Assembly: GCA_016933615.1 (NCBI GenBank)
Contig: JAFGAO010000213.1
Location: 1-56,427 of the forward strand
Direction: 5' to 3'
Length of the DNA: 56,427 nucleotides
DNA from: Acidobacteriota bacterium
GTDB lineage: Bacteria; Acidobacteriota; UBA6911
In this document: positions 40,472-56,427 of the stretch, in pieces
How the letters are laid out: the number at the start of each line of letters is the position of its first letter
Numbering within the stretch: the stretch's first letter is position 1
Position numbers and translations under genes: made by a program
Notes under the pieces: generated by a model
The model's input: the letters and a program-made list of their open reading frames with translations, nothing else
The model's database searches: none
Told to the model about the DNA's origin: nothing

Positions 40472-41233
40472 ATGGCGCAAAGAAAATTGGCGCTGGTGAC
40501 CGGCGCTACAATGCCGCGGGGGATTGGTAGAGCCACCGCCCTGACCCTGGCGCGCGAGGGATACGATGTGGCGGTAACCGGATTCAACAATATGGATAGG
40601 GCCCGGTCCGTTTCGGATCAGATAATGGAGATGGGCCGGAGGTCGATCGCCGTAAAGATGAACGGTCGGGATTACGGCGACGTCCAGAAGGCGTTTGCAA
40701 CCATTAAGAGTGAACTCGGCCCCGTTGAAATACTTGTAAACAACGCGGCGCAGATGCGCCGCATGGTGACGATCGCCAAGACGACTATCGAAGACTGGGA
40801 AGACGAGGTGAAACTCTGTCTCCACTCCGCCTTTTATTGCATCAAGGAGGCCTGGGGCGACATGTGCGCCAACAAGTGGGGCCGGATTGTGAACATAACC
40901 TCGGTCGCGGGCGTCATGGGCGGCTACGGCCAGTCGGGCTACGGGTCGGCCAAGGCCGGTCTCGTGGGCCTCGCCAAATGCGCGGCCCTGGAAGGAGCCA
41001 GGTTCAATATCACCGCGAACTGCGTCCTCGTCGGGATAGCGCAGACGGAAGCCTACGACGAGACGATTTCGGAAGAAATCCGGAAAACTCTTGAGAAAAG
41101 GATTGCCTTTCGCCGTGCGGCGTCCCCCCAGGAAGTGGCCGATGCCGTCGCCCATGTCGTTTCCGACAAGGCCGGGTATATGACCGGGAGCATCGTCAAC
41201 CTGATGGGCGGGCTCGACCTCTTCATCCTTTAG
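40472..41233 (+). CDS. Short-chain dehydrogenase/reductase (FabG-like)
   Basis: A classical SDR of 253 residues. The cofactor motif is TGATMPRGIGR (10-20), followed by NNAAQ (90-94) and the catalytic Ser144 with Tyr157 and Lys161 (YGSAK). It reduces or oxidises a carbonyl/hydroxyl using NAD(P)H; the position away from fatty-acid genes leaves the substrate open, though 3-oxoacyl substrates are common for such sequences. AAGGAGTGGAGT lies before the ATG. Its 3' end overlaps the convergent cupin gene by 11 bp. Confidence 0.9.
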   Translation: MAQRKLALVTGATMPRGIGRATALTLAREGYDVAVTGFNNMDRARSVSDQIMEMGRRSIAVKMNGRDYGDVQKAFATIKSELGPVEILVNNAAQMRRMVTIAKTTIEDWEDEVKLCLHSAFYCIKEAWGDMCANKWGRIVNITSVAGVMGGYGQSGYGSAKAGLVGLAKCAALEGARFNITANCVLVGIAQTEAYDETISEEIRKTLEKRIAFRRAASPQEVADAVAHVVSDKAGYMTGSIVNLMGGLDLFIL

Positions 41234-41672
41234 CGATTGCCTTTTTATACCTGTCTGCAGGCCCCGTTGCAAGGTACCAGATCGGCCTTTCGATCTTTCT
41301 GAAATAAATCGGGGCATGCTTCAGTCCCGCGGGTATGAAAACGGCGCAGCTTTTCGTGAGCATGTGCTTCTCTCCGCCTATCCACAGCTCGACTTCTCCC
41401 CCCAGGTCGTTGGGGTCCTGGGGATTCGTGCCGAGAAACACCAGGTATTCATCAAACTCATGATCGTGTTCCTCCGCGGGACTGCCTTCGCCCGTGATCT
41501 TTTTCCACCATGCGGCCATAAAATAGTAAGCTCCGGGAACCACCTCTTCGTCGACGTAGATGGGAAAGGTAACATGCTCTTCCCGCTTCCGGGCTTGTTC
41601 AGGGGTCTCCGGCGGACCGAAGCCTTCCTTTGCCCTATCTATGATATTCCCTGCATATTTTCCCTCGGACAT
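41223..41672 (-). CDS. Cupin-like protein
   Basis: A 149-residue protein with one predicted double-stranded beta-helix. Motif 1 is represented by EEHDHEFDEYLVFLG (about residues 67-81), carrying His and Glu ligands, and motif 2 by IPAGLKHAP (about 112-120). Many such small proteins bind a metal and act on or sense small carboxylic or sugar ligands; none can be chosen here. GGGAGG precedes the ATG at good distance. It converges on the SDR gene. Confidence 0.7.
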   Translation of the reverse strand: MSEGKYAGNIIDRAKEGFGPPETPEQARKREEHVTFPIYVDEEVVPGAYYFMAAWWKKITGEGSPAEEHDHEFDEYLVFLGTNPQDPNDLGGEVELWIGGEKHMLTKSCAVFIPAGLKHAPIYFRKIERPIWYLATGPADRYKKAIAKG

Positions 41673-41776
41673 AAGCCTCGTCCTCCCGTTGCGGCCCCAT
41701 GAAATTCAAGGGAAACCGCGGATCCTGGAAAGTGGCCGTCCGCTGTTCGCGTCCACTCCCGGTTATAAAAATGCCC

Positions 41777-43030
41777 TTACTGTTCTTCAAGGAGTAAAAA
41801 CATAAACGGCAGGACGGCGGATTTTTTATAGACGTAGGAAGCTCCGGAATCGGTTCCTCTGTCGTCGTCACCGAATGCTCCGATAACGACCGCATCCGGA
41901 CTGACCGCTACGGACCTGCCGAAGTTGTCCCCCGCGGCGCCATCCGAGGCCGTGAACTTCCGCTGCTCGCCCCAGGTGCCCCCGCTTCTTACAAAAACAT
42001 AAGCGGATCCCGAATTGGTTCCCTTGTCGTCGTCATAATCCGCCCCGATGACGACCGTATCGCCCGTGATCGCCACGGACCAGCCGAAGTAGTCTCCCGC
42101 CGCCCCGTCCGATGCCGTCAGCTTCTGCTGCTGGCTCCAGGCGCCCCCGCTTCTTACAAAAACATAGGCGGATCCGGATTCAAACCCGCTGTCATCATCA
42201 TAATCCGCCCCGACGACAGCCGTGTCGCCGCTGATCGCCACGGAATCGCCGAAATAGTCTCCTTCCGCCCCGTCCGATGCCGTCAGCTTCCGCTGCTGGC
42301 TCCAAATGCCTCCGCTTCTCACGAAAACGTACGCGGATCCGGATTCCACCCCTGTGTCATCGTCGCCATAGGCCCCGATGACAACCGTATCCTCATCAAT
42401 CGCCGAGTTCCAGCCAAAGAAGTCTCCCGCAGCTCCGTCCGATGCCGTCAGCTTCTGCTGCTCGCTCCAGGAGCCCCCGCTCCTTACGAAAACGTACGCG
42501 GATCCGGATTCGACGCCATTGTCACCGTCATAGTCTGCCCCGACGACGACCGTATCGCCGCTGATCGCCACGGAATCTCCGAAATAGTCCCCTTCTGCAC
42601 CGTCCGATGCCGTCAGCTTCTGCTGCTCGCTCCAGGAGCCCCCGTTTCTCACGAAAACATAGGCGGATCCGGATTCAATACCTTTGTCGTCGTCACCGTA
42701 GGCCCCGATGACAACCGTATCGCCGCTGACCGCTACTTTCCATCCGAAGTAGTCTCCCGCAGCCCCGTCCGATGCCGTCAGCTTCTGCTGCTCACTCCAG
42801 GCGTTTCCGCTTCTCACGAAAACATACGCGGATCCGGAATCAATGCCTTTGTCGTCGTCATAATCCGCCCCGACGACGACCGTATCGCCGCTGATCGCAA
42901 CAGACCTGCCCAGGTAATCCCCTGCGGCTCCGTCCGATGCCGTGAGTTTGGTTTCATGGGCAACAGCCGCATTCAGGACGCCGGAGAATAAGAAAAATAT
43001 CACTGTCAGCGAATGTTTTTTTCCATGCAT
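41777..43030 (-). CDS. Exported seven-repeat FG-GAP protein with C-terminal tag
   Basis: About 417 residues: a signal peptide (MHGKKHSLTVIFFLFSGV, cleavage near ANA), then seven tandem repeats of about 55 residues, each with LTASDGA-GDYFG, SGDTVVVGA and DDDKG-SGSAYVF elements. Seven FG-GAP units with Asp-rich calcium loops predict one closed integrin-alpha-like beta-propeller. The repeats are so alike that 165-bp DNA repeats are obvious. The start at 43030 has AAGGAAA upstream. It ends LPFMFLLLEEQ, resembling the ends of three other exported proteins here. Probable surface or periplasmic binding protein. Confidence 0.85.
   Translation of the reverse strand: MHGKKHSLTVIFFLFSGVLNAAVAHETKLTASDGAAGDYLGRSVAISGDTVVVGADYDDDKGIDSGSAYVFVRSGNAWSEQQKLTASDGAAGDYFGWKVAVSGDTVVIGAYGDDDKGIESGSAYVFVRNGGSWSEQQKLTASDGAEGDYFGDSVAISGDTVVVGADYDGDNGVESGSAYVFVRSGGSWSEQQKLTASDGAAGDFFGWNSAIDEDTVVIGAYGDDDTGVESGSAYVFVRSGGIWSQQRKLTASDGAEGDYFGDSVAISGDTAVVGADYDDDSGFESGSAYVFVRSGGAWSQQQKLTASDGAAGDYFGWSVAITGDTVVIGADYDDDKGTNSGSAYVFVRSGGTWGEQRKFTASDGAAGDNFGRSVAVSPDAVVIGAFGDDDRGTDSGASYVYKKSAVLPFMFLLLEEQ
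41820..42960 (-). repeat. Tandem 165-bp DNA repeats within the FG-GAP gene
   Basis: Seven near-identical units encode the FG-GAP blades. Units 1, 3 and 5 share one variant (GADYDDD-like loop) while units 2 and 4 share another (GAYGDDD), suggesting growth by duplication of two-unit blocks. Homology at DNA level makes copy-number change by recombination plausible. Confidence 0.7.
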
Positions 43031-43370
43031 GTTAAATTTCCTTGTACTCAATGAAATTATCCGTCTTCTTTGGGTCGCGGATTCATCGGTGACCCTGGTT
43101 TGACGCCAATCACGCCGGGGAATGGCCCGTCCTTGATTGTTGTACCACTTTTAAGTCGAGAGGCATAGAAATTGAATACGGCCGGCTATCCAAAATCATT
43201 TTTTATGGTCCGATTTACCCGGAACTGCAGTAAAATTCATTCTGCGAATCACAATTAATTACATAGAACGTCGATTTCATGGTCTGGCGGCATTCCGTGG
43301 CAGCGGGTGAGTCCTGGATACAGGCGCCCGTTCATCATATCCTCTCATGGAAGCGAAAGGATAAATAAAA
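43031..43370. other. Divergent intergenic region between two exported-protein genes
   Basis: About 340 bp, clearly AT-richer than the neighbouring genes, with no supported gene. It should contain the promoters of the FG-GAP gene (leftwards) and the YWTD gene (rightwards), but no box pair with correct spacing stood out on reading. Confidence 0.5.
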
Positions 43371-44267
43371 ATGAGACTGAAACGATTGCTTTTGGGGGCT
43401 TCCATCTGCCTGGTCCCCGCGATGGTTCAGGCGCAGGCTCCTACAAAAATCTATTGGACGGAGAGCTATCCCAGCGGCACGCATCCGGTCTCCAAGGCGA
43501 ACCTCGACGGATCGTCCCCGCAGGAACTCTGCACGTCTTCAAGGGGCTTTACGGGTGTGGCGGTAGACCCGGTCCATCGCAAGTTGTACCTGGCCGGCTG
43601 GGACAAAATCGAACGCGCCGATCTCGACGGCTCCAACAGGCAGGACCTCGTAACCAGCATCTATCCCGAGGACCTCGACCTGGATCTTTTGGCCGGGAAA
43701 ATGTACTGGACGAACTATACCTATGACGACGCGACTATCATGCGGGCCAACCTGGACGGCTCCGGCGTGGAAACCCTGACGGGGCACCTGGGCGACGGCT
43801 GCGTGCTCACGGGGATCGACGTCGATGCGGCCGGCGGCAAGGTTTATTGGGTGGAGAGATTTGACGATCAAATCATGAGGGCGAATTTGGACGGCTCCGG
43901 AATGGAAACGCTGCTGCGTTGCTCCGATGGCGTCTCAAATTCCTATGATGTGGTTATATACGGATCCTATTTGTACTGGACGGACTGGAACTATGGAATC
44001 TGCAGGGCGGAGCTCGATGGAGACAATCCTCAAGCGCCGTATATCTCCGGCCTCAATGATCCTCTGTACATTGACGTCGACCGGACGAACGGAAAATTCT
44101 ATTGGGCAAGCTACGGAGACGACAGCATCAAGCGGTGCAACCATGACGGCACGGGCATGGAAACCCTGGTTACGGGGATCCTGTATCCCCAGGCTGTCTG
44201 CCTCTCCGCCGAATCCCTGAGCCGGCGCACCGTTCCGATCCTGCAGATGCTGCTGTTGGAAGAATGA
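43371..44267 (+). CDS. Exported YWTD-type beta-propeller with C-terminal tag
   Basis: A 298-residue protein with a clear signal peptide (MRLKRLLLGASICLVPAMVQA, cleavage after AQA). The mature chain has about six repeats of 40-45 residues of the LDL-receptor class B type: IYWTES, LYLAGW, MYWTNY, VYWVER, LYWTDW, FYWASY, each followed by (R/C)A-LDGS-(G/N)-ET. This predicts a six-bladed propeller, usually for protein or ligand binding. AAAGGA precedes the ATG. It ends VPILQMLLLEE, like the tag of neighbouring exported proteins. Confidence 0.85.
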   Translation: MRLKRLLLGASICLVPAMVQAQAPTKIYWTESYPSGTHPVSKANLDGSSPQELCTSSRGFTGVAVDPVHRKLYLAGWDKIERADLDGSNRQDLVTSIYPEDLDLDLLAGKMYWTNYTYDDATIMRANLDGSGVETLTGHLGDGCVLTGIDVDAAGGKVYWVERFDDQIMRANLDGSGMETLLRCSDGVSNSYDVVIYGSYLYWTDWNYGICRAELDGDNPQAPYISGLNDPLYIDVDRTNGKFYWASYGDDSIKRCNHDGTGMETLVTGILYPQAVCLSAESLSRRTVPILQMLLLEE

Positions 44268-44468
44268 TACCGGTCCGTGCAGCAGGCCCGCATCACCTCC
44301 ACAGAATTGATAAAGAACGGCGTCGTTGAGCCTTTCATCAGCGCCGCCCGCGATCCTTACCTTTCCTGTAATATACCGTGGCCGCTGCCAGACAGCCGGC
44401 CGCGGCGGTCAGCCCCGAACGCCCGGCGCAAAAATCCTGCCTGAAAGTCTCCATTCCGCAAAGGATTC

Positions 44469-45167
44469 CTATTCCAGGGGAATTACTACCACGCCTTGCC
44501 TACCTTCGATAAATTGTTTCAGAAGAATATTTCTTTCTTCAACCTCATTTTCCTCGCAATCCAGGGAACCGCAAGTCATAAAGCAACCCGGAGTGCTGTT
44601 TGTTTCGCTCACCCGGTACATTTTTACCGGCCCGACGCCTCTTGCGAGCCATACTCTTTCCGTGTAGATTCCGAGCCCGTCGTCCACGACAATTTGCATT
44701 CTCAGCGCATTGTTGAACGTGCCGGCAGGCACCGTAACCGTTTCTTCGGCTTGCAGGGTGATCTCGAAGGAAATGGCATCCTCATCGATGACGCCGGCCG
44801 GTATCGTCGTCGAAACGACATCTCCGAGATCCATCTGCGCATTGGCGAACTTGACGGGCGTTGAGGAAAAATCGATCCATGAATTGCTATCAAGGCTGTA
44901 AATACCGATTCCCAGAATGCCTTCCGGACCCGTGTAGACGTAGAAATAACCGTCGCAGATGCCGCGTGCCTGCATGAACTGAATGCCCGTGTAGCTCGCG
45001 AATGCATGTTCCTCCGCGCCCACCACAAACAGGTCCCGGTCGTAGATCCAGACATTTCCCGCATCGAAGGACCAGTAATCGGCCATCGTGTATGCGCGGG
45101 CGGCCGTCGAGGATGCAAACAACAAATAAGGCGCAAGCATTAAAAAAAGAACCGTTTTCTTTTTCAT
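44469..45167 (-). CDS. Exported protein of unknown function
   Basis: A 232-residue protein with a signal peptide (MKKKTVLFLMLAPYLLFASSTAARA). The mature part is beta-rich and contains TVPAGTFNNALRMQ and ERVWLARGVGPVKMY, a pattern seen in many bacterial secreted proteins of unknown role. A CysxxxCys-containing segment (CFMTCGSLDCEE) lies near the C-terminus. The chain ends GVVVIPLE, hydrophobic then acidic but without the triple leucine of its neighbours. GGAAG precedes the ATG. Function unknown. Confidence 0.75.
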   Translation of the reverse strand: MKKKTVLFLMLAPYLLFASSTAARAYTMADYWSFDAGNVWIYDRDLFVVGAEEHAFASYTGIQFMQARGICDGYFYVYTGPEGILGIGIYSLDSNSWIDFSSTPVKFANAQMDLGDVVSTTIPAGVIDEDAISFEITLQAEETVTVPAGTFNNALRMQIVVDDGLGIYTERVWLARGVGPVKMYRVSETNSTPGCFMTCGSLDCEENEVEERNILLKQFIEGRQGVVVIPLE

Positions 45168-45421
45168 GTCTTCCTACCTCTCTATTCCTGGGATCGGGCA
45201 GAGACTTTCCCCCAAACGGAAGCCAGCTCAAAGCCCGGGTTATACCAAAATGCCGGCAGGGAGCGGCAAATCCTCATCGAATATGCAACTCAGAGGCGAC
45301 AATGACAGGGTATATCAATCACCGCAGGACAGGCAACTATTTGGATACGGGCTCCATCCGATTATTCAACATTAAAATTGCGATCTATCGGGCCGATCCC
45401 TATTCGCGCTGTTTCTTTGAG

Positions 45422-46273
45422 CTACGGATCCAGGAGCAGGTAAATAAAAGGCAAATGGGCACGTTCATCGTAGTTCCAGCCGGAACAGGGATCAAAAACG
45501 TTCATAACGATCATTTCGGCGAAATTCCAATCCCGCCCCTGAAACGTGTAAGCGCCCGAAGCCCGGCCGATGCCCAGGAAACCTTCCATGCCCGCAGTCC
45601 CGGAGTTGTCATTGTAGGAATACCAGAGTATGGCATGCCTATGGCCCCATGAGCAGCAAGTCCCGTCATCGTACATCCAGGCATATATGGCGCGCTCCAA
45701 AGGGAGGGGTATGCTCGATGCGGTTGCCATGAATACGGCGAGATTCTCGGCGACACTGAGAAAGTCATGACAGGCGCTGATGGCCTCATTGGAATTAAGC
45801 CTCTCCCATGGATCCCGGCCGTCTGCGTAGTGCCCCCAGGCATCATTGTCCAGAAGATATTGTGCGTAATACTGGGCCACTGAACCCACGTTCGTTTCCG
45901 CGCCATGCAGGGCGTCGATGCCGCGGTCAAGCCGTTCACGGTTGATCAGCCAGAGCGCCTTTTCAGAATCGCGCATGCCGTCCCATGTCGCTTGAGAAGG
46001 CATCGTCAGAGCCGGAATGGCTTTGCCGAGCAAACGATTTTCTTCCGACCGGGCGAAATTGAATGCACATTGAACGTCAGCCACACCGGAAGCGGAGCAG
46101 TTCCAGGCGATGTCCGCAAGGGGATCCGCCGGATACGCCATCGGTGCAATCTTTCGGGATGAGGGCTTTTTAATTATCGGCTCTCCGGATCGAAAAGTCT
46201 CTTCGGCCGGCGCCGCCGATACCAGGGGCCATAGAAATAATGCGAATATTTTCAAGACGATTGATCGGCTCAT
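45422..46273 (-). CDS. Exported CAP/SCP-domain protein with C-terminal tag
   Basis: About 284 residues. A signal peptide (MSRSIVLKIFALFLWPLVSAAPA) precedes a Cys-containing linker and a CAP domain (about 105-265) with WLINRERLDRGI, VAQYYAQYLLDN, WGHYADG, SVAENLAVF and WGHRHAIL, which supply the two His and acidic residues of the CAP cavity. CAP proteins act outside the cell; functions vary from proteolysis to lipid binding. The start at 46273 is the first ATG; a TTG lies five codons earlier. The chain ends HLPFIYLLLDP, nearly the same as the end of the FG-GAP protein. Confidence 0.85.
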   Translation of the reverse strand: MSRSIVLKIFALFLWPLVSAAPAEETFRSGEPIIKKPSSRKIAPMAYPADPLADIAWNCSASGVADVQCAFNFARSEENRLLGKAIPALTMPSQATWDGMRDSEKALWLINRERLDRGIDALHGAETNVGSVAQYYAQYLLDNDAWGHYADGRDPWERLNSNEAISACHDFLSVAENLAVFMATASSIPLPLERAIYAWMYDDGTCCSWGHRHAILWYSYNDNSGTAGMEGFLGIGRASGAYTFQGRDWNFAEMIVMNVFDPCSGWNYDERAHLPFIYLLLDP

Positions 46274-46284
46274 GTGTTTCCAAC

Positions 46285-47187
46285 TCAAAAATTACTCAAA
46301 GCGATCCAGACGGAGATGACGATGAGTACGGACGCCGCCAGGCGAAGCGAATAGATTCTGCCGCTCTGCGTCTCGAGCACCGTGCTGCCGCGATGGGTCA
46401 AAACGGCGCTGATAAGCACGATAAAGATCCCGCGGGTCGACTGCAGAATGTTGGGGATCACCACGCCGTTTCCCATTTCCAACAGGATCACGTAGAGCAG
46501 CGTCGCCGCGACAATGGAAACCGAGGCATAAATACCGAGCCTCAGATCCGCGCCTTTCAACACGAGCGGCACCCGTTTTTTCCTGATGTGGGGAATGACG
46601 CCAAGCGATAGAAGGCCGACGATACCGTTGTAGTAAACCATGAAATTATAGGAATCCACATAAAAAAGAGCCCGCTTTATGAAGATGTCGGTAAATCCGA
46701 ATATGAGGCTGCAGGCTGCCATCAGGGCAATCGGCTTCATCGGGAATCTGCTGCGGCTGCCCTTCGAGGGAGAGTAGCCGAGGACCGCGATCGCGACCGC
46801 TACCAGAACGGCGGCTGTATAGACCTGCCAGGTGTGCTTCTCCCCGAGCATGGGAATCGCCAGGAGACCTGCGAAAACCACCTTGCTTCCCATAATCGGC
46901 ATCACGCTGGAAGCGTCCCCGTAATGAAGCGCCGCGTAAAGAAAAAGATAGGCGGCAACGCAGGTAGCGCACGATGTTAAAAGCGGCGCCCACCCGCCCG
47001 GCGCGGGGGATTGCGGCCGGATAAAAAGCCAGAGCAGCGGAGTAACAAGCGCCTGGATGCCGTTTATATAAAGAAATAGAAGAAACGGCTCCCGGATTCG
47101 GTTTTTTAACAGCGCCTTGGACAACGCGGAATAGATGCTGTGCGCAAAGCCCGAAGACACGCCCACCAGGAGGAAGACGATATTCAT
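46285..47187 (-). CDS. EamA/DMT-superfamily transporter
   Basis: An inner-membrane protein of about 300 residues with some ten membrane helices in two five-helix halves, the drug/metabolite transporter layout. Features are GVSSGFAHSIYSALSKALL at the start, YGDASSVMPIMGSKVV closing the first half and GNGVVIPNILQSTRGI closing the second. The start at 47187 is where the first helix begins; the frame is open far upstream through the inverted-repeat region, which is not expected to be coding. Transported substrate unknown. Confidence 0.82.
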   Translation of the reverse strand: MNIVFLLVGVSSGFAHSIYSALSKALLKNRIREPFLLFLYINGIQALVTPLLWLFIRPQSPAPGGWAPLLTSCATCVAAYLFLYAALHYGDASSVMPIMGSKVVFAGLLAIPMLGEKHTWQVYTAAVLVAVAIAVLGYSPSKGSRSRFPMKPIALMAACSLIFGFTDIFIKRALFYVDSYNFMVYYNGIVGLLSLGVIPHIRKKRVPLVLKGADLRLGIYASVSIVAATLLYVILLEMGNGVVIPNILQSTRGIFIVLISAVLTHRGSTVLETQSGRIYSLRLAASVLIVISVWIALSNF

Positions 47188-47205
47188 AATCGGAATTTCA
47201 TCGGA

Positions 47206-47256
47206 AATTTCGGTGACAGTGGCAATTTCGAGGTTATGGTGACTGTCACCGAAATT
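47206..47256. repeat. 15-bp perfect inverted repeat upstream of the DMT transporter
   Basis: AATTTCGGTGACAGT (47206-47220) and ACTGTCACCGAAATT (47242-47256) are perfect complements around a 21-bp spacer. The right arm also contains the internal palindrome GGTGAC-T-GTCACC (47238-47250). It may be an operator for the transporter gene, a hairpin, or the core of a small mobile repeat. Confidence 0.65.
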
Positions 47257-47369
47257 ACAACGGGCTCCTGAATAAGATACCCAGGAGCCCGCGGCGGATT
47301 TCTTCATCACGCCCGCCCCCCGCCGGAGAGACGCTCCTTCAGGGGCCGGCATACTGTGAGTCTATAAGG

Positions 47370-49379
47370 CTATTTGCCGAATTCGGGTTTTCTCTTTTCC
47401 ATGAACGCCATGACGCCTTCCTTGCAGTCCGCGGCGCAGGAGATGTCGCCGGCGCCCAGATAGGCGATCTCCAGCGCTTCGGCGAGCGTTTTGACTTTTG
47501 CGGCCTTGTTGATGACCCCGCCGATGATTCCCAGGATTTCCTTGCTGAGCGGAAGATCCCCGGCCTTCGGATCGTCCGGTATGACGAACTCCGGAATATC
47601 CAATGGACCGTCGGCGATCCTGGGAATGTTCCCCTGGAGCCTGTTCACTTCGGCGATGGCCGCGTCGATCAGCTCGGGGAAAGTCTTCGCGGTTTTCTTG
47701 ACAATCCCGATTTCCACCGCTTCCGGAACCGTCAACCTTTCGGATTTGCCGATCATGGCGTGGAACTTGGCAGCGGCCTGGGGCCATTTGCGATACGGGA
47801 TCACGACACCGCCCATGCCCGGGATCATTCCCAGGGTGATTTCCGGAAGCTGCATGAAGGCCTTTTCCATCGCCACCATGCTGTGGCATCGGGTGGCCAG
47901 TTCGGTGCCGCCACCCATGGCGAGACCGTTGAGCGCAGCAACGACCGGCTTGCCTATCCGGTCCATGTACTCCAGGACCTTCGAATTTCCGCGCGACAGC
48001 GACTGGCCCTTTTCGTGGTCGCCGAAGGTGGCGATGAATCCGCCGATATCGGCGCCGGCGCAGAAGGCCTTGGGGCCGTAACCCGTGATCACGAATCCTT
48101 TCACGGACGCATCCGCCTCGCCTTTTTTGAGTTCGGCCAGTATTTCATTGCACGTGTGGTCGCTCAGCGCGTTGGCCGCCTGGGGCCTGCGGATGGAAAG
48201 GATTTTCACCCCATCCATCTCGTCGACCAGGATGTCCCGGGGAAAATCGACATACTCTTCAATCGGTTTTGTGGGTTCCGGGAAACCGGGGCGCTCGGCA
48301 AGGAATTTCTTCATGATGCCGGCGACCTTCTCGGCGCCGAGATTCTTCATGAGGTCGAAAATGCCTTGTTTATAGCCGAGGGCGACCATGCTGCCGAAAT
48401 TGAGATCGGAGCTGGTGCCGATGCTCTTGTCGGCGATATAGAAGGCCTGCGAAAAGACGCACCCCAGAAAGCGCGTCCGGATCCACTCCGCAATCTCGGG
48501 ATCCACGTCGACTTTCGTCCGGGGCTTGTTGTAGGTCCATTTGTCCACCGACAGCAGCAGTTTGTTCGGCTTATAGGCGGGATTCTCGGCCGATCGCCGG
48601 GTCTGGGACGCGTAGGTCAGCGGATTGGTCATGATGCCGAAAGGCCCCATTCCCAGAAATTCTTCGCTGATGAAATCGATTTCCTTGCTGGTGGCCCGGT
48701 CCAGCATGAACGTGGTCTCGCTCCCCCAGCTCTCAAACAGCCGGTTCAGAAGGAAGGAAAAGACATTCGCGGCGGCGAGCGGCGTTTTCCCGTTCTGGGC
48801 CATGAGCCAGAGAAGATAATCGATGACTTTCTTGTCCGACTTCTCCCAGGCGATGACCTCGACGCCCAGGCTGCGCCAGGCCGGTTCGAAAAAGTGGGTG
48901 TTTGCGGTTCTTTCCGGATGTTTCAGGTGGCTGAAGATCTGGTTTGCCAGAATGCCGCTGGTGTTGGACGTGATGATCGCGTTCTCCCCGACTTTCGATT
49001 CGACCAGCGACAGGATTTTCTTTTTTATCTCCAGGTCTTCCGTCGCCGCTTCTATGACCAGGCCGCAGTTTTTAATCTTGTCGTAATCGGTGGTGTATTC
49101 GATGTTGCCCAGGACGCCCTCCACCTGTTCGGGACGCAGCTTTTTGAGCTGAACCCCCTTTTGCGCGTAGCTTTCGAACCGCTGCTGCGCTTTCTTGAGG
49201 GGTTCTTCAACCACATCCACCAGGTACAGCTTCTTTTGAGGAAAGGCGAGCCGGAAGGAATACGCAATATCGGGCCCGATATGGCCGGCGCCGAGCACGG
49301 CCATCTCCTCGGGTATGGGCCGGAAGGGCCGGATGAGGTAGGGATTCTGAAAGCTTGGATACAGGTCTTTTACTGTCAT
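47370..49379 (-). CDS. 3-hydroxyacyl-CoA dehydrogenase / enoyl-CoA hydratase fusion (HAD first)
   Basis: A 669-residue bifunctional enzyme. Residues 1 to about 390 are an NAD-dependent 3-hydroxyacyl-CoA dehydrogenase (LGAGHIGPDIA, SNTSGI, catalytic His in HFFEPA); about 400-610 are a crotonase domain with FCAGADI, and both catalytic glutamates in GGGTELA and LPEITLG. The domain order is the reverse of FadB and matches the fusions described from archaeal crotonyl-CoA hydratase/hydroxybutyryl-CoA dehydrogenases. It follows the thiolase gene by 30 bp with AAGGAG, so the two form a beta-oxidation or beta-oxoacyl operon. Direction in vivo is not evident. Confidence 0.92.
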   Translation of the reverse strand: MTVKDLYPSFQNPYLIRPFRPIPEEMAVLGAGHIGPDIAYSFRLAFPQKKLYLVDVVEEPLKKAQQRFESYAQKGVQLKKLRPEQVEGVLGNIEYTTDYDKIKNCGLVIEAATEDLEIKKKILSLVESKVGENAIITSNTSGILANQIFSHLKHPERTANTHFFEPAWRSLGVEVIAWEKSDKKVIDYLLWLMAQNGKTPLAAANVFSFLLNRLFESWGSETTFMLDRATSKEIDFISEEFLGMGPFGIMTNPLTYASQTRRSAENPAYKPNKLLLSVDKWTYNKPRTKVDVDPEIAEWIRTRFLGCVFSQAFYIADKSIGTSSDLNFGSMVALGYKQGIFDLMKNLGAEKVAGIMKKFLAERPGFPEPTKPIEEYVDFPRDILVDEMDGVKILSIRRPQAANALSDHTCNEILAELKKGEADASVKGFVITGYGPKAFCAGADIGGFIATFGDHEKGQSLSRGNSKVLEYMDRIGKPVVAALNGLAMGGGTELATRCHSMVAMEKAFMQLPEITLGMIPGMGGVVIPYRKWPQAAAKFHAMIGKSERLTVPEAVEIGIVKKTAKTFPELIDAAIAEVNRLQGNIPRIADGPLDIPEFVIPDDPKAGDLPLSKEILGIIGGVINKAAKVKTLAEALEIAYLGAGDISCAADCKEGVMAFMEKRKPEFGK

Positions 49380-49409
49380 TGGATGTCTCCTTCAAATATC
49401 AACTTGCCG

Positions 49410-50597
49410 TTAATTCACTTTGATTACCAGGGCGGCTCCTGTATCGCCCGCCGCGCAGCCGGCCACCAGTCCGTAACCGCCGCCTTTCAGGACCAGCTCC
49501 TCGATTGCTTCAATCGCCAGCCTCATGACCGTAGGTCCCTGCGGGTGCCCCCAGATCAGAGAGCTTCCGTAATTGTTGAATATCCTGTCGTCGACCCCCA
49601 TCTCTTTTCTCATGATGATGTCGTTGACCGAGAACGGATTGTGGGTCTTGACCACGGCGAGATCGGAAACCGCGACTGCCGCCTTTTCCAGCGCCTTCTT
49701 CGATGCAGGCACCGGCGCATTGGGCATGTGGGCCTTCTTGGCGCGCGCAACGCCATAGGAAAGAATCTGGATGGTCACGTTTTTATCTGCGGAGAGCTCG
49801 TCCGCTTTACCCTTCGTGGTGACGATCATGCCGGCATTGCCGTCGGCCGCGTGGGTCTGGGAACCGGCATGTATGATCGAATCCGGCATTGTCCTCAGCT
49901 TTGCCAGGCCTTCGGCCGTGCAGGGCGTGATCCCCTCGTCCTCTTCCACCATGATGGACTCTTTTTTGGAGATCTTCACTTCCACGGGCAGCATGAAGCG
50001 TTTCTGAAATTCGCGGTTGTTCGCCGTCGACATCAGGTACTTGTTGTACCGGTCGACGACCAGGGCATCGGACTCTTCGCGCGTGATTCCGTGCTCTTTT
50101 GTGACGTTGATGGCGGTTCCCAGCGGGCCGGTGTCCCCGGTCGGTTCGAACATGAAACCGTCCATCATCCAGCTCTCGAAGTCCGGCTTCCCGCCGAGCC
50201 CTGCAGGATTCGGCCAGAGAATGTTCGGGCAGTTGGACGCGCGGTCGCAGGTAGCCACCAGCACATTGGCGTCGCTTTCCGCCTCGACGGAGGTTGCGGC
50301 GGTCTTGATGGCAACCGTCGCTGTGGCGCACGCCTGCGCGACCCGGGGACCGGCGAGGTAGGGATTGCCTATCAGCGAGGCGAACCAGGGGGCGTCGTAA
50401 AACCACATCTTCTGGGGAATGGTCGCGCCGAAGACGAGGCTGTCGAAGATATCGGGCGTGATCCCGCGCAATTCAAAAAACTTCTTCGCAGTATCGGCCG
50501 CCAGTACCACGGCGTGCTGCGTTTGGAATGATCCCTGCCATTTGCAAAAAGGCGAGCACCAGTATCCTTTGTAGGGAACATATACATTCTTGAACAT
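49410..50597 (-). CDS. Thiolase (acetyl-CoA acyltransferase)
   Basis: A 395-residue thiolase that joins or splits acyl-CoA units. The nucleophilic cysteine is Cys90 in RVAQACATA; the C-terminal catalytic elements are NDIIMRKE, WGHPQGPT (His) and GCAAGDTG (Cys). The usual GGxxALGHPxGxTG is altered to NYGSSLIWGHPQGPT, which points to a divergent thiolase branch. AAGGAGC lies before the ATG. First gene of the pair with the HAD-ECH fusion and divergent from an ADP-forming acyl-CoA ligase. Confidence 0.92.
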   Translation of the reverse strand: MFKNVYVPYKGYWCSPFCKWQGSFQTQHAVVLAADTAKKFFELRGITPDIFDSLVFGATIPQKMWFYDAPWFASLIGNPYLAGPRVAQACATATVAIKTAATSVEAESDANVLVATCDRASNCPNILWPNPAGLGGKPDFESWMMDGFMFEPTGDTGPLGTAINVTKEHGITREESDALVVDRYNKYLMSTANNREFQKRFMLPVEVKISKKESIMVEEDEGITPCTAEGLAKLRTMPDSIIHAGSQTHAADGNAGMIVTTKGKADELSADKNVTIQILSYGVARAKKAHMPNAPVPASKKALEKAAVAVSDLAVVKTHNPFSVNDIIMRKEMGVDDRIFNNYGSSLIWGHPQGPTVMRLAIEAIEELVLKGGGYGLVAGCAAGDTGAALVIKVN

Positions 50598-51254
50598 TTC
50601 CAGCTCCTTTCGAATACGCTATTTCGCGACTCTCTAATTTAAGATCTTACATTGAGGGCTTTTAGGTGATGCAGATAGGAATGCAACGCTCTCGGGCTTT
50701 GGATTTGGCTAAATGTTTCCGTTAAAACGAATATTATTCCCCTCCCTCTCCCCTGCAACATTTTGATGCCGCCCGGCAAGGCCGCTTACCGGGCCCCGCA
50801 CATTCGGGGACAGTTCCACGACAAGCCTCCGCCACCGAATACGCCACGACGGCCTTCACATAGCCTTGCTCCCGTGAAGGCCTTCGTTGAAGGATTCGCA
50901 ACTTTGCCGTCTGTTCCCTGCCCGCTTTTTAACGGCTTACTACTTCGAAATCCCGTGCGCCGGCAAAACCGCAGATGCGCAGAAATGCAACAGATTTCGC
51001 AAAATAGAATAGGAGAGACGCAGAATCATAGTCAAGCACGAAATGCCGCGCCCCGGAACTATCCCGATGCATTTGCGCAAGTCAAAACAGGCACGGGGCA
51101 AAAACAATTGACACCCAAACAAACATGTTGATACCGTAAAACCCGATTTCATTGAATGGAACAAACCTGTTTTTACGTTGAAGCAGCACGCGACGGGTCG
51201 AAAGTTTTTTAATAACAATATAATACACGGATTTGACGGACACGGGAGAGAGCG
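50598..51254. other. Divergent region between thiolase and second acyl-CoA ligase
   Basis: About 655 bp without a supported gene. Short open frames on either strand show no family features. The right part (51100-51250) is AT-rich and contains a perfect TTGACA at about 51105-51110 without a well-placed -10, and a perfect TATAAT at 51219-51224. Confidence 0.55.
51219..51224 (+). promoter_or_regulatory. Putative -10 box of the second acyl-CoA ligase gene
   Basis: TATAAT 31 bp before the ATG at 51255. A matching -35 is poor, so only the -10 box is claimed. Transcription near 51231 would leave a very short leader containing GGGAGAGAG. Confidence 0.4.
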
Positions 51255-53405
51255 ATGGGGAAAACCACTTCGTTGGATGCATTCTTTAAGCCGAAAAGCG
51301 TGGCGATTGTCGGAGCGTCCTCCGATCCCAAGAAACCGGGCCATACCGCGCTCAAAAACCTCGTGTCCCTGGGCTACAAGGGGAAGGTCTTCCCGGTCAA
51401 TCCGCGCGAGGATTCCATCCTCGGATTCCGCTGTTGCAGGAATATGCTGGATATACCCGAGCCGGTGGATGTGTGCGTTTTGCTGGTATCGGCGGATCTC
51501 ACGATGAAAGTCGCCGACGAGCTGGTAGAGAGGAAGCGACGTTTTGACGACGTAACCGCCGCCGTTTGCATGTCCGCGGGATTCGGAGAGCTGAACACGA
51601 GCGAGGGAAAAGAGCGGGAACGGGACCTTGTCCGGACGCTTTCATCGGCTTCGATCCGGCTTATGGGACCCAACTGCGTCGGTGTATTCGACACGTACAG
51701 CGGATTCAATACGAATTTCGACATTTCGACCTACCCGAAGGGCGGAGTGAGCGTTCTCACCCAGAGCGGCGCGTTCGCCAATTCCATGCTCTTCTGGGCG
51801 GAAAGGCTGCGCCTGATCGGCGTCAGCAAATTCGCCTCGATCGGCAACATGGCGGACGTGACCATGGGGGAACTGCTGAATTACCTCAAAGACGACGACT
51901 CCACGCGCGTGATCGCCCTTTACATGGAGGGTTTCTCAAGACCGAGGGAGTTTTTTGAGATCGCTCGCAAAGTCAGCGCCCGAAAGCCCATCGTGGTCAT
52001 GAAAACCGGCAGGAGCGATATGGGTTCGAAAGCCGCCCTGTCGCACACCGGTTCCGTGGCCGGATCCGATGCGATTTACGACGGCGCCTTCAAACAGGCT
52101 GGCCTCCTTCGCGCCGGATCCATCCTGGAGTTCTACGACACTATACGGGCGTTCGAAAAGCAGCCGGTGCCCGGAGGGAACCGCGTATCCATACTCACGC
52201 ACATGGGCGGGCCTGGAACCATCTGTATCGACGAAATTTCCGCGAACCGCAGGCTCGAGCTGGCAAAGCTTTCGCCCTCTACGGAAAAGGCTCTCAAAAG
52301 CATCTGCGCCCCGATGGCCAATATCGGGAGTCCGGACGGATATGTCGATCTGACGGCCGCGCATTATGAAAAACTGCACAACGAAGTGCTGCAGATTCTG
52401 TTCCGGGACAGAAACATCGACATGGTCCTGCAGATCCTGGCGCCGAGCGCCTTCCTGGACCAGAAGCTTCTCGTCGAGGAGATCCGGGAGGCCTGCAGGG
52501 CGCGGCAGGGCGAAAAGACATTTCTGAACGCGGTGACTTTCGGTGAATTTGCCTACGCCGTCCGGCAGGGGCTCGAAGACGCGGGCATGCCCACGTACGA
52601 ATATTCCGACATGCTCGCCAGGGTCGCGGGAAACATGGCGACCTATGCGGTCTACCGCAAATCCCGTTCCGGCCGAACCGGGATTCCGAAATACAGGCCG
52701 GATCCGCAAAATCGTTCCGCAAAGATAATATCGGGCGCATCCAGCCGTGGGCGTATCAGCCTTCTGGAACCGGAGGCATACAAGGTATGCGGCGAATATG
52801 GAATCAAGGTGCCTCCCTACCGGGTCGTGGGATCTGTCGAGAGCGCCCTCGCAGCAGCCCGAAAAATCGGGTATCCGGTTGCGCTGAAGGTGGTCTCCGA
52901 GGAAATCCTTCACAAGACGGACGCAGGCGGCGTGATGCTCGGAATCGATTCGGACGGCGCTTTGAAGGGTTCGTACAAACGGCTTGCGGCCAATGTAAAG
53001 AAAGCGGCTCCCGGCCTGTCCGCGATGAAGGTGCTGGTGCAGAAGATGATCCCGTCCAACACCGAGCTGGTTCTGGGGGCGCTCAGGGACAAATCCTTCG
53101 GGCCGACGGTCATGTTCGGGATGGGCGGCATTTATGTGGAAGCGCTCAAGATGGTGGGTTTCCGCCTCTCGCCGGTTTCGCCGGAAGAAGCGAAGAATCT
53201 GATCGTGGAAACGCTCCCCCCCCCCTTGATCCGGGGCGTGCGCGGCAGGGACCCCATGAACGTGGATGCGATCGCGGGAGTCCTAGTCTCGCTGGGGCGG
53301 CTGCTCGAAGAACAGCCGCAGATCGAGGAAGTGGATTTCAATCCCGTCCTTCCCTACCGGGACGGCTGCATCGCGGTCGACGCAAGAATCATCATCGCAA
53401 AGTAG
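51255..53405 (+). CDS. ADP-forming acyl-CoA synthetase, second paralogue
   Basis: A 716-residue paralogue of the gene at 26614, with the same order: CoA-binding domain (about 8-130; KPKSVAIVGASSDP), ligase domains with the phosphohistidine in LSHTGSVAG (His264), and ATP-grasp (about 505-716; PVALKVVSEEILHKTDAGG). It would interconvert an acyl-CoA and its acid with ATP formation, and stands opposite the thiolase/HAD-ECH operon. GGGAGAGAG precedes the ATG. The TAG stop is fused to a GGGGCGAACC hairpin, and the last 44 bp of the gene recur at 56347. Confidence 0.93.
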   Translation: MGKTTSLDAFFKPKSVAIVGASSDPKKPGHTALKNLVSLGYKGKVFPVNPREDSILGFRCCRNMLDIPEPVDVCVLLVSADLTMKVADELVERKRRFDDVTAAVCMSAGFGELNTSEGKERERDLVRTLSSASIRLMGPNCVGVFDTYSGFNTNFDISTYPKGGVSVLTQSGAFANSMLFWAERLRLIGVSKFASIGNMADVTMGELLNYLKDDDSTRVIALYMEGFSRPREFFEIARKVSARKPIVVMKTGRSDMGSKAALSHTGSVAGSDAIYDGAFKQAGLLRAGSILEFYDTIRAFEKQPVPGGNRVSILTHMGGPGTICIDEISANRRLELAKLSPSTEKALKSICAPMANIGSPDGYVDLTAAHYEKLHNEVLQILFRDRNIDMVLQILAPSAFLDQKLLVEEIREACRARQGEKTFLNAVTFGEFAYAVRQGLEDAGMPTYEYSDMLARVAGNMATYAVYRKSRSGRTGIPKYRPDPQNRSAKIISGASSRGRISLLEPEAYKVCGEYGIKVPPYRVVGSVESALAAARKIGYPVALKVVSEEILHKTDAGGVMLGIDSDGALKGSYKRLAANVKKAAPGLSAMKVLVQKMIPSNTELVLGALRDKSFGPTVMFGMGGIYVEALKMVGFRLSPVSPEEAKNLIVETLPPPLIRGVRGRDPMNVDAIAGVLVSLGRLLEEQPQIEEVDFNPVLPYRDGCIAVDARIIIAK

Positions 53406-53442
53406 GGGCGAACCTTGTGTTCGCCCACCTTGTGTTCGCCCA
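53362..53442 (+). repeat. 81-bp direct repeat, left copy
   Basis: Identical, apart from one C/T difference (53378 region), to 56347-56427 at the right edge of the window. It covers the last 44 bp of the acyl-CoA ligase gene plus the post-stop hairpin and part of the 15-bp tandem array. Confidence 0.9.
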
Positions 53443-53456
53443 CCTTGTGTTCGCCC
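53406..53456 (+). repeat. Post-stop hairpin and three 15-bp tandem repeats
   Basis: GGGCGAAC (53406-53413) pairs with GTTCGCCC (53419-53426) around CTTGT, a perfect 8-bp hairpin starting one base after the stop codon. The unit ACCTTGTGTTCGCCC is then repeated three times in tandem (53412, 53427, 53442). A T-run of only four follows, so it is at best a weak terminator. Confidence 0.75.
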
Positions 53457-53979
53457 TTTTCTCTTCCTTGTGATTTTCCCCTTCTCTGTCGGAAATTCAT
53501 TCGGACCGCATGGAAACAGGGTTGAAAACGGTCTGATTGTATGGGTTCTGTTGACGGGTCGGCATGCGGCCCATGTGCAATCCGAAGGAAAAAACCGGCA
53601 TGCCCGGCGCAACAGACGGCAGGGGCTTGCCGCGGATTAATCGCCGTTTAAAAGCAGATCGAGAATGCCCGGAATTGTTTCACCTGTGCTTTTTTTCAAA
53701 AAAAACAGCCGTTACGGAACGAGGAGCGGATATTGTCAGATTGCATGGATTGGAGTTATCGGCCAAATCGCCGCTTCAACCGGTAAAGACATATCCGGGG
53801 TTAAAGACAGTACCCCCGGGAGCTGCGTAATAGTCAATTGTCACCATGGAAAGCGAACCGCCGACCGCCGGCAGTTCCGCCGGCATCAAGAAGAGAATCA
53901 AGCTCAAAAGGGAAGCCGACCTGTGCAGTTTCGATGGCCACATTTCGAGACTCACAATTATTCTTACGGGATAAAGCGG
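53457..53979. other. Intergenic region between acyl-CoA ligase and second FG-GAP gene
   Basis: About 520 bp between convergent genes. Several overlapping short open frames are present on the plus strand but none has a recognisable product, good start site or sensible hydrophobicity. No clear terminator was found. Confidence 0.5.
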
Positions 53980-56049
53980 CTAATCATCCAGCAGCAGGAG
54001 AGGAAGGACTCCCGGGTGGATGGCCAGACCAGGAGAAAACACATAGGCGGCGCCTGAATCCGTTCCGGCGGTCACGGAATCGGCCCGGTAAGCTCCGACT
54101 GCGATGGTGTCAACGCTGAAAGCGACAGACACGCCAAAACCGTCTTCCTCGGCGCCGTCCGAAGCGGTGATTTTTCCCAGCTCTCCCCAGTTGTCTGAGC
54201 CGCCATGGTCCTGGCCGAAAATGTAAGCCGCTCCGGACCAGCTGGCGCGATCATCGTCACCCACCGCACCGACGACCACCCTGTTCCCGCCGGCGGAGAC
54301 GGACCTGCCAAAATCGTCCCCCTCCTCCCCATCCGAGGGGATAATCTTTTTTACTACCTGCCAGCTGCCCGGCCCGCCCTCGTCGCGGCCATAAACATAG
54401 GCCGATCCCGAGCCGATGCCCTGATCGTCGTCACCACTTGCGCCCACCACAATGGTGTCCCCGCCGATGAACACCGCCATACCGAAAGCATCGCCCACAT
54501 CGCCGTCAAAGGCGTTCAATTTCTTTATCTGCCCCCAGTTGTCTGGGCCATTCTCATTCCGGTCGAATATAGCGGCCGAACCGGAGCAGTCTCCGCCGTC
54601 ATCGTCGTAAGGAATACCTGCCACCAGGACGTCGCCGCCGATGGAAACGGAAAAACCGAACTCATCATTCGTCGCGACGTCCCAACCGGTGATTTTCTTG
54701 ACCTCACCCCAGTTGTTCGCTCCCCCGTAATTTCGCTCAAAGATGTAGGCTGCGCCGGACCGCGGCCCGTGGTCACCGTCAAAGGGAGCCCCCACCACAA
54801 TGGTGTCCCCGCTGACGGAGACGGAATAACCGAATGAGTCGCCCCCCTCGCCGTCGGAAGCGGTGAGTTTTTTTACCTGCCCCCAGTTGTTTGCTCCGTC
54901 GTGATCCCGCTCAAAGATGTAGGCTGCTCCGAGGCCCTCGAGGGTGGGAGAATCATCCCCTCGCGCCCCCACCACCACGGTGTCCCCGCTGACGGACACG
55001 GAAAAACCGAACAGGTCATACCGGGCTCCGTCGGAGGCGGTAAGTTTTTTTACCTGCCCCCAGTTGTTTGCGCCGCCGTGATCCCGCTCAAAGATGTAGG
55101 CCAGTCCGGTGCTTTCCACGATGTCGCTCTCCTGGGGCGCGCCCACGACTACCGTATTCCCGCTGATGGAGACGGAATGGCCGAACGTGTCATCCTGTGT
55201 GCCGTCCGAAGCGGTGATTTTCTTTTCTCGAGCGAACACAGGGTCAATCGTCAGCGGATAAACGGCCCTGGCGTCGTCAACAACATAAACGATTTGGTAA
55301 GAAGGGCTTGCCGCATTGTTGTTTCGGACTTCAAGTTTTGCCGGGAGAGGCTTGCCGGTCGCGTCCCATGCTGCAAGTGCACTGTAATGCAGCACCGGCT
55401 CGCCTTTTACCGTACAGAAAAAGGCATCGCGTCCTTTTTCCCGAACCCGGGCTCGCAACGAACTCGATACGGTCCATTCTACAACCAGCGGCTGGCCGGT
55501 CTTTCCCGACGGCGGCTCTTGAAGCGTGATTCCCTGCTCCAGGCCGCGCTCATCGTTTAGGTACCATTCCGTGAGTTTTGCATGCCCGTATTCAATCCGG
55601 CTTCCCGATACCGCGATTGCATCTTTTTCCAGCTCTTTCACGCGTACCGATGCTTCACCATAGCCGTAGCCGCCCAGGGACATCTCCACCTGCCAGGCAG
55701 GTTCGCTTTCGCGTCCCGGAAGAATCCGGATTCCGTGTTCGGTGAAATAAGCATTCAGGTTTTGCGACCGGTTTACGGCACGATATAAACTCTCTTTTCC
55801 TAAAGGAGGGGTTCGCTCGCAAACCCTTAAATCATAGCGGGATTTGCCTGACTGCTTTGAGATGTTCTCCCGAACTGCGGGTGTTGGATCCACCGGCTGT
55901 CTTATGTCTTCTTTCTTCGCTGCCCGTATTGCGGAAAACGGGGTGTCGGTATCGGCAATAACCCCGCTCCTGTCTCCAGGGAATCCTCCCCATAGAAGGA
56001 GCATCAAAAAAACAGCAGCTGACGGCGAGGCGATCGATTTTTTTTGCAT
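53980..56049 (-). CDS. Large exported FG-GAP protein with C-terminal tag
   Basis: A 689-residue protein with a signal peptide (MQKKSIASPSAAVFLMLLLWGG). The first 280 residues after it form a beta-rich module ending in YPLTIDPVF, often found in front of repeat domains in bacterial surface proteins. Seven FG-GAP repeats of about 58 residues follow (about 283-675), each with (K/L)TASDG-DxFG, SGDTVVVGA and AAYIFERD-GGANNWGQV, predicting a seven-bladed propeller. It is a longer, more diverged relative of the gene at 41777. The chain ends GVLPLLLLDD. GGGAG precedes the ATG. Confidence 0.85.
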   Translation of the reverse strand: MQKKSIASPSAAVFLMLLLWGGFPGDRSGVIADTDTPFSAIRAAKKEDIRQPVDPTPAVRENISKQSGKSRYDLRVCERTPPLGKESLYRAVNRSQNLNAYFTEHGIRILPGRESEPAWQVEMSLGGYGYGEASVRVKELEKDAIAVSGSRIEYGHAKLTEWYLNDERGLEQGITLQEPPSGKTGQPLVVEWTVSSSLRARVREKGRDAFFCTVKGEPVLHYSALAAWDATGKPLPAKLEVRNNNAASPSYQIVYVVDDARAVYPLTIDPVFAREKKITASDGTQDDTFGHSVSISGNTVVVGAPQESDIVESTGLAYIFERDHGGANNWGQVKKLTASDGARYDLFGFSVSVSGDTVVVGARGDDSPTLEGLGAAYIFERDHDGANNWGQVKKLTASDGEGGDSFGYSVSVSGDTIVVGAPFDGDHGPRSGAAYIFERNYGGANNWGEVKKITGWDVATNDEFGFSVSIGGDVLVAGIPYDDDGGDCSGSAAIFDRNENGPDNWGQIKKLNAFDGDVGDAFGMAVFIGGDTIVVGASGDDDQGIGSGSAYVYGRDEGGPGSWQVVKKIIPSDGEEGDDFGRSVSAGGNRVVVGAVGDDDRASWSGAAYIFGQDHGGSDNWGELGKITASDGAEEDGFGVSVAFSVDTIAVGAYRADSVTAGTDSGAAYVFSPGLAIHPGVLPLLLLDD

Positions 56050-56346
56050 CTCTTTTTCTCCCGGTAAGGGTTACCGCGCAGAGTTATGGAGCAAAAAAAG
56101 CGAAAGCCCCATTGGAATTTTATGTTTCCCATGAGGCTTGCTATTCATTGTATTCATGGCTTCCCCCCCCCTCGCCGACCGACTTGTAAAGGAGCAAGCC
56201 CCTAGGAATGCACATGCCAAGCCGAAGAGAATTGCCCGCCCGATAAAAATCTTCCACTCTTTGTACAGGCAGAAATCAAAATTTCTTTGCTTCCGGCAGC
56301 AATGCTTTCCATCCATCCGGCTTTGCAATTCCGTGGCGTTTCTTTA
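56050..56346. other. Region upstream of the FG-GAP gene, possible small lipoprotein remnant
   Basis: No gene is well supported. On the minus strand an 85-codon frame (56328 to 56071) contains a hydrophobic segment followed by a lipobox-like FLGAC, but its start region is not hydrophilic-basic in the usual way and there is no binding site, so it may be a decayed lipoprotein gene or chance. A tract of eight C lies at about 56163-56171. Confidence 0.4.
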
Positions 56347-56390
56347 ACGGCTGCATCGCGGTTGACGCAAGAATCATCATCGCAAAGTAG
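56347..56390 (+). pseudogene. Duplicated 3' fragment of the acyl-CoA ligase gene
   Basis: Encodes GCIAVDARIIIAK and TAG exactly as at the end of the gene at 51255, with one synonymous base change, but the sequence just upstream is unrelated and no start exists. It is a gene-end fragment carried with the hairpin that follows. Confidence 0.75.
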
Positions 56391-56427
56391 GGGCGAACCT
56401 TGTGTTCGCCCACCTTGTGTTCGCCCA
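56347..56427 (+). repeat. 81-bp direct repeat, right copy (runs off the window)
   Basis: Matches 53362-53442 with a single mismatch. The window ends inside it, so its true length and what lies beyond are unknown. Confidence 0.9.

Follow-up and report, generated by a model that had tools for sequence, protein, structure and literature searches.

A short C-terminal tail, made of a proline, a run of leucines and an acidic end, closes four exported proteins of three different folds in a 56,427-nucleotide stretch of DNA from an Acidobacteriota bacterium, and three more proteins of the same genome carry it. The stretch (the window, meaning its whole length) is contig C184 of genome G000, an assembly of 3.62 Mb in 298 contigs that is 82% complete. 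The tail is a real, non-random and apparently lineage-restricted C-terminal motif of exported proteins, outside the named families tested. The existence of this tag is well supported, and we infer a function for it in docking or sorting.

The four window tails all lie in frame, directly before a stop codon, as the sequence-only reading had described, and the folds it had named are right: in Pfam two of the proteins match FG-GAP_2 (seven stretches each), one matches Ldl_recept_b and DUF5050, and one matches CAP (Table 1; proteins are called by their first coordinate). For the 41777 protein the gene caller prefers an alternative ATG start, giving 417 residues (to 43030). The consensus of the tails is [VLAI]-P-x(1-4, mostly hydrophobic)-L-L-L-(L/I)-[DEG]-[DEP], spanning the last 9 to 12 residues. 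Each of the seven carriers has a proline and, within its last three residues, an acid; the uncharged run is 9-10 residues long, the net charge is -1 to -2, and the tail contains neither Lys nor Arg.

Outside the window, G000 has two further FG-GAP proteins. One, on contig C31, was reached as an FG-GAP homologue and ends in the tail (...LTPAVPLLLLGD); the other, on C200, stops at ...SGAVYMY and is tailless. The other two tagged FG-GAP proteins are 50% and 41% identical to the 41777 protein, and their tails are equivalent although worded differently. A search of G000 with profile A1, built from five tails, gave back four of these five together with C257 (E = 0.89) and C296 (E = 0.97). The C257 match coincides exactly with the C-terminus (...TANVPIIQLLILDE) of a protein that has tandem repeats, no Pfam family and an N-terminal signal-like stretch, which is visible by eye and was missed by the caller; this carrier was found through the tail profile. 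The C296 match, 71 residues before the stop, and one on C109, 15 residues before the stop, were rejected. The seventh carrier, a frame with an SGL and SBBP propeller on C45, is the only extra one met through untargeted stretches. It has no start with a signal peptide, its 5' part being missing or in another frame, which is why no signal peptide is seen. An N-terminal signal peptide is present in six of the seven carriers (five by the crude caller, C257 by eye; the C45 frame lacks its 5' part). The seven represent at least five architectures: FG-GAP (three), YWTD propeller, CAP, Pfam-less tandem repeats, and SGL plus SBBP propeller. The sequence-only reading had argued from three folds that common descent of the whole proteins is not the explanation, and the sharing of the tail by different architectures is a supported part of that reading.

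In this one genome the tail is enriched in exported over other proteins, a check that the sequence-only reading had suggested. The sequence sampled comprises the window and 120 stretches, 1,066,389 bases or 29% of the genome, among which the C31, C200 and C257 stretches were picked deliberately. Gene calling with a home-made program yielded 814 scored genes that have a stop, and a crude signal-peptide caller assigned the exported class. A strict pattern for the end of an open reading frame (ORF), P.{0,5}LL[LI][LI]?[DEGN].{0,2}, was derived from the four window (discovery) tails. It matches five of the 177 exported-like proteins, none of the 155 membrane proteins and two of the 482 others; the latter two are the C257 protein, whose signal peptide was missed, and the C45 propeller without its 5' part. 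The matches expected among the 177 exported-like proteins are 0.06 when the last 20 residues are shuffled and 0.009 from interior positions. Fisher's test gives p = 0.007 for the classes as called (5/177 vs 2/637) and 2e-5 with C257 and C45 assigned by hand as exported (7/179 vs 0/635); under the same hand assignment but without the four discovery proteins p is about 0.01 (3/175 vs 0/635). In the window the crude caller finds 12 exported-type genes, four of them with the tail.

Chance origin of the tails was rejected on this enrichment and shuffling, on a control with foreign ORFs and on hold-out recovery. Among 8,449 six-frame ORFs of at least 60 codons in the sampled 29%, eight end in the pattern; seven are the carriers and the eighth is an ORF of 93 codons on C31. 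Among 6,242 ORFs in 157 loci of other genomes the pattern ends two, both of 62-71 codons, and some of these control loci had been fetched through tail-profile matches, which should raise the control count. A hidden Markov model of the four window tails, run over 14,666 ORF ends, places those tails at ranks 1-4, C257 5th, C45 8th and C31 17th. Ranks 6 and 7 are controls from loci fetched earlier by a tail-profile match, and further non-carriers fill ranks 9-16, which means that C31 would not be conspicuous by itself.

Codons for the same residues differ among the tails and the downstream DNA is unrelated (six carriers compared). A mobile element or a recent duplication of DNA is therefore not the explanation, and a DNA repeat at the gene ends was rejected because codons and downstream sequence differ; positions 41000-56427 of the window were also searched for repeats. 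The possibility that the window contig is misbinned was rejected as well. Of 48 stretches of at least 8 kb, C184 has the most typical tetranucleotide composition, a place favoured by its being also the longest, whereas C31 is atypical (rank 46 of 48). The AlphaFold model of the 41777 protein (alignment of 30 sequences) has a mean predicted local distance difference test score (pLDDT) of 91.9 and integrin alpha chains as its best PDB matches. Its propeller is modelled with confidence between residues 30 and 410, approximately, and the last strand ends by residue 409; the end beyond is unstructured, with pLDDT about 50, and falls below 50 at residues 414-421. Because the propeller ends before this terminus, the tail is predicted to lie outside the fold and the propeller to be complete without it. 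The CAP protein, modelled without an alignment, gave a mean pLDDT of 35.8.

The tail had been read from the sequence as shorter than PEP-CTERM and LPXTG signals, devoid of a basic end and not a recognised named signal, and this description stands: its uncharged run and net charge are as given above, and no tested family or CTERM model matched. For the seven carriers, no NCBIfam CTERM model is listed at E ≤ 1, where very short models can escape HMMER filters, and no match to the C-terminal domain of the type IX secretion system (T9SS) is listed in Pfam at E ≤ 0.01 or NCBIfam at E ≤ 1. Exosortase (PF09721) has no match in G000 at E ≤ 0.01, a search that did not extend to rhombosortase, myxosortase or sortase genes; since this metagenome-assembled genome is 82% complete, the absence is not proof. 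A description of such a tail was not met in the available parts of the literature searched.

Sortase, exosortase, archaeosortase, rhombosortase and myxosortase systems are described as using a three-part signal that includes a hydrophobic helix and a positive end (PMC1569441, PMC11980579). For PEP-CTERM the parts given are Pro-Glu-Pro, a transmembrane stretch of probably 14 residues and a basic end (PMC1569441); MYXO-CTERM and GlyGly-CTERM are also described as tripartite, both having a hydrophobic helix and positive charge at the end, and MYXO-CTERM an invariant Cys (PMC11980579). Like PEP-CTERM/exosortase (TIGR02595, PF09721), the tail is C-terminal, sits on signal-peptide proteins of different folds, occurs several times per genome and has a Pro in its motif. 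Unlike PEP-CTERM, it has Pro-Glu-Pro in none of the seven cases, only 9-10 uncharged residues, an acidic end and no exosortase match. It resembles MYXO-CTERM/myxosortase and GlyGly-CTERM/rhombosortase in having several substrates, one proposed handler and surface proteins as carriers. The listed tails of 10-13 residues are unlike MYXO-CTERM in having no Cys, Arg or Lys (7/7) and no transmembrane helix, and unlike GlyGly-CTERM in having no Gly-Gly (7/7), no hydrophobic helix and no basic end. The LPXTG motif, transmembrane helix and basic end of sortase substrates are likewise missing. These differences bear on whether the tail is a processing signal, like a minimal CTERM, with a protease or transpeptidase cutting at or near the Pro and removing the leucine-acid end. 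CTERM signals likewise place a Pro and then a hydrophobic stretch at the very C-terminus of proteins that have signal peptides and varied folds (PMC1569441, PMC11980579), but the short uncharged run, the acidic charge and the lack of a basic end in 7/7 tails, together with the want of a CTERM model listed at E ≤ 1 and of a match to exosortase, the one processing enzyme searched for in this 82% complete genome, make processing unlikely.

The tail shares with T9SS C-terminal domains and dockerin modules the slot that these occupy behind FG-GAP propellers of other phyla (by eye). Those domains and modules are folded and several dozen residues long, unlike the tail, which has 9-12 residues and is predicted to be unstructured. 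Encapsulin cargo and similar docking peptides are another parallel, in which a short terminal peptide docks unrelated cargo to one receptor; encapsulin cargo is cytoplasmic, unlike the carriers here, which are exported. A terminal motif common to non-homologous exported proteins, as found here, is one feature of sorting or docking tags in general, another being a tail that localisation depends on and that has its own partner.

Our preferred, still tentative, reading is that the tail serves as a short tag for docking or sorting, to which an envelope partner would bind; no candidate for this partner was found. Its existence, terminal position, concentration in exported proteins, presence on several architectures and independent DNA are observed; exposure in vivo, a single shared partner, and routing to the surface or into secretion are presumed. 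A normal N-terminal signal peptide would take the carriers out of the cytoplasm, their main domain (a beta-propeller in most) would fold, and the flexible, leucine-rich, acid-ended tail would be left exposed. A single envelope or surface receptor would then recognise the tail and dock or route the carriers. A stop-transfer segment that spans the membrane would have to be longer than this tail, which also has no basic end, and binding is therefore favoured over sortase-like transpeptidation. A bolder form, that the 9-12 residue P-x-hydrophobic-LLL(L)-[DE] is the entire signal of a previously undescribed envelope address system read by an envelope receptor, is conceivable but doubtful. If true, a tag free of helix and basic end would call for another type of recogniser, and current models could miss such tags, so that proteins relying on them would look untagged. 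The motif is concrete and testable, and seven substrates are provided.

Could the tail do without a recogniser? A passive hydrophobic end that aids oligomerisation, envelope association or packing would fit the varying distance between Pro and the Leu run and the high hydrophobic content of all seven tails. The recurrence of both Pro and the late acid in 7/7 speaks against it, and comparable ends are seldom seen in exported proteins: LLL or four consecutive hydrophobic residues occur in the last 14 residues of only 15 of the 177 exported-like proteins, five of which are carriers. A passive end is thus improbable.

The distribution in relatives bears on the origin of the tail. The A3 profile was run on 15 family genomes (E ≤ 10) and 396 phylum genomes (E ≤ 0.2), and the A6 profile on 38 class genomes (E ≤ 3); these sets overlap and each includes G000. 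These weak searches gave no carrier genome besides G000, among 14 others of the family, 37 of the class and 395 of the phylum. The profiles lost members of their own (A1 and A3 missed their member 53980 and also did not find C45, A6 missed 53980, and A4 missed 41777 and 45422), and divergent tails may therefore occur elsewhere. All 24 foreign matches were located, and not one belongs to an exported protein that ends in the tag: 21 sit at least nine residues before the stop, the L067 match contains a stop codon, the L086 match is a 26-codon frame, and the L066 match is the end of a 302-residue frame with hydrophobic sequence around it (YLPALFMLLLFDKY).

The homologues of the carriers that were read likewise end differently, although those of the propellers are only distant and thus no clean counterpart of the close orthologues that the sequence-only reading had named. 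The CAP protein has no homologue at the cut-offs used in 39 other genomes (only G000 of 40), nor has the C257 protein in 395. FG-GAP homologues were found at 79 loci, and none of the 68 closed ends has the tail, a few ends perhaps lying in a neighbouring frame (e.g., L163); those of G006 and G008 end in ...SGAVYLY and ...SGAVYMY. By eye, several foreign FG-GAP homologues carry clade-typical C-terminal modules in the slot of the tail, which favours the docking or sorting tag. These modules look MYXO-CTERM-like in Polyangium, Minicystis and a further myxobacterium, resemble dockerins in Planctomycetota and in two genomes named as Desulfobacterota, and resemble T9SS domains in KSB1, Calditrichaeota and Bacteroidales. 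YWTD homologues, all distant, match in 13 of 395 other genomes. Closed ends without the tag were read in eight (G011, G022, G034, G092, G305, G359, G367, and G390), those of G354, G246 and G253 were left unread, and those of G193 and G378 run off the locus. By eye, a YWTD-type homologue (L315, from G034 of the same class) and an SBBP-like homologue (L283, from G101 of the same phylum) have T9SS-like C-terminal domains; T9SS may therefore occur in the phylum of G000.

Restriction to one species with unrelated codons is puzzling, and implies either that the tag is old with unsampled relatives or that each tail was acquired independently. That every carrier found sits in one genome would also suit a functionless relic of 3' ends shuffled or duplicated long ago, or compositional convergence within a single lineage that likewise serves no function today, and the atypical composition of C31 suggests that some carriers may be acquired. 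This origin is nonetheless improbable, since the residues are kept without DNA similarity at or downstream of the tails in six carriers, the tagged FG-GAP proteins have diverged to 50% and 41% identity with 41777 yet keep equivalent tails, and the composition of the window contig is the most typical of the 48, its length favouring this result. Weakest of all, and very improbable, is a recognition sequence for a periplasmic PDZ-type protease (Tsp/Prc/CtpA), serving turnover or trimming: substrates of these proteases typically have an exposed, hydrophobic C-terminus, but the last residue here is Asp, Glu, Gln or Pro in 7/7, not Ala- or Leu-like, and marking propeller and CAP proteins for turnover would be strange.

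Several observations weigh against a docking or sorting tag. The sequence-only reading, in which the tag may direct anchoring, secretion or processing by a partner, is partly supported: the tail is concentrated in exported-type proteins, but no partner was found, either in the exosortase search or in the gene lists of the C31, C45 and C257 stretches, which by eye show no obvious common membrane protein. No second carrier genome was found, which is odd for a sorting system. The tag is also rare, with one strict match in 745 genes (161 exported-like) of the untargeted stretches; it is therefore a minority feature, and four in 14 kb are a local concentration. Not all FG-GAP proteins are tagged, as C200 shows, and the exported gene at 44469-45167 within the cluster is without the tag. 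The low pLDDT of the 41777 tail is partly built in, the aligned homologous stretches covering the propeller match only.

Table 1. Coordinates of the carriers, their C-terminal tags and related genes (window positions unless a locus is given).
Feature	Position	Strand	Evidence or remark
Exported seven-repeat FG-GAP beta-propeller, 424 residues from TTG	41777..43051	-	FG-GAP_2 in Pfam, AlphaFold model; terminus ...AVLPFMFLLLEEQ
C-terminal tag LPFMFLLLEEQ of this FG-GAP carrier	41780..41812	-	ORF end and codon reading; tail codons GCC GTC CTG CCG TTT ATG TTT TTA CTC CTT GAA GAA CAG
Exported YWTD/LDL-receptor class B propeller, 298 residues	43371..44267	+	Pfam Ldl_recept_b and DUF5050; terminus ...TVPILQMLLLEE
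C-terminal tag VPILQMLLLEE	44232..44264	+	ORF end; matched by tail profiles containing it; tail codons ACC GTT CCG ATC CTG CAG ATG CTG CTG TTG GAA GAA
Exported DUF3108-like protein amid the carrier cluster, tag-free	44469..45167	-	ends GVVVIPLE, hydrophobic and acidic
Exported CAP-domain protein, 288 residues	45422..46288	-	weak Pfam CAP match; terminus ...AHLPFIYLLLDP
C-terminal tag HLPFIYLLLDP of the CAP carrier	45425..45457	-	ORF end and codon reading; tail codons CAT TTG CCT TTT ATT TAC CTG CTC CTG GAT CCG
Exported seven-repeat FG-GAP protein with long N-terminal region, 689 residues	53980..56049	-	FG-GAP_2 in Pfam; terminus ...HPGVLPLLLLDD
C-terminal tag VLPLLLLDD of this FG-GAP carrier	53983..54009	-	ORF end and codon reading; tail codons GTC CTT CCT CTC CTG CTG CTG GAT GAT
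SGL + SBBP propeller frame, tag carrier on C45	L175:1907-2893	-	ends ...NTAPWIPLLLLD
Exported delta-60/SBBP-like protein adjoining the C45 carrier	L175:220-1683	-	motif in mature N-terminus

The neighbour of the C45 carrier has, directly after its signal peptide, a sequence resembling the C-terminal tag (SLPAIHGLLLLSDDD), and the tag may work at a mature N-terminus too. The motif, SGSSSLPAIHGLLLLSDDD, is a single case and the count is not significant. With a looser pattern, internal matches occur in one other exported-like protein and in six proteins called cytoplasmic, so the motif of the neighbour may be due to chance. A homologue from the same genus (52% identity) has a lipoprotein-like start with GCGWFFSDEDDEED. 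Homologues occur in 40 of 296 other genomes; in the loci from 29 of these, read by eye and including a few that are incomplete or of doubtful frame, the motif is at neither end.

Two kinds of repeats were also seen in G000. On C31 (L028), short repeats read as GIYITKAAASCRTP or ALSRNLHYESG flank the FG-GAP carrier on both sides. In the window, the last 81 bases (56347-56427) match 53362-53442, the 3' end of a CoA-synthetase-like gene, at 99%; this 81-base sequence contains a short repeat of the GGGCGAAC...TTCGCCC type and is probably an assembly repeat at the contig end.

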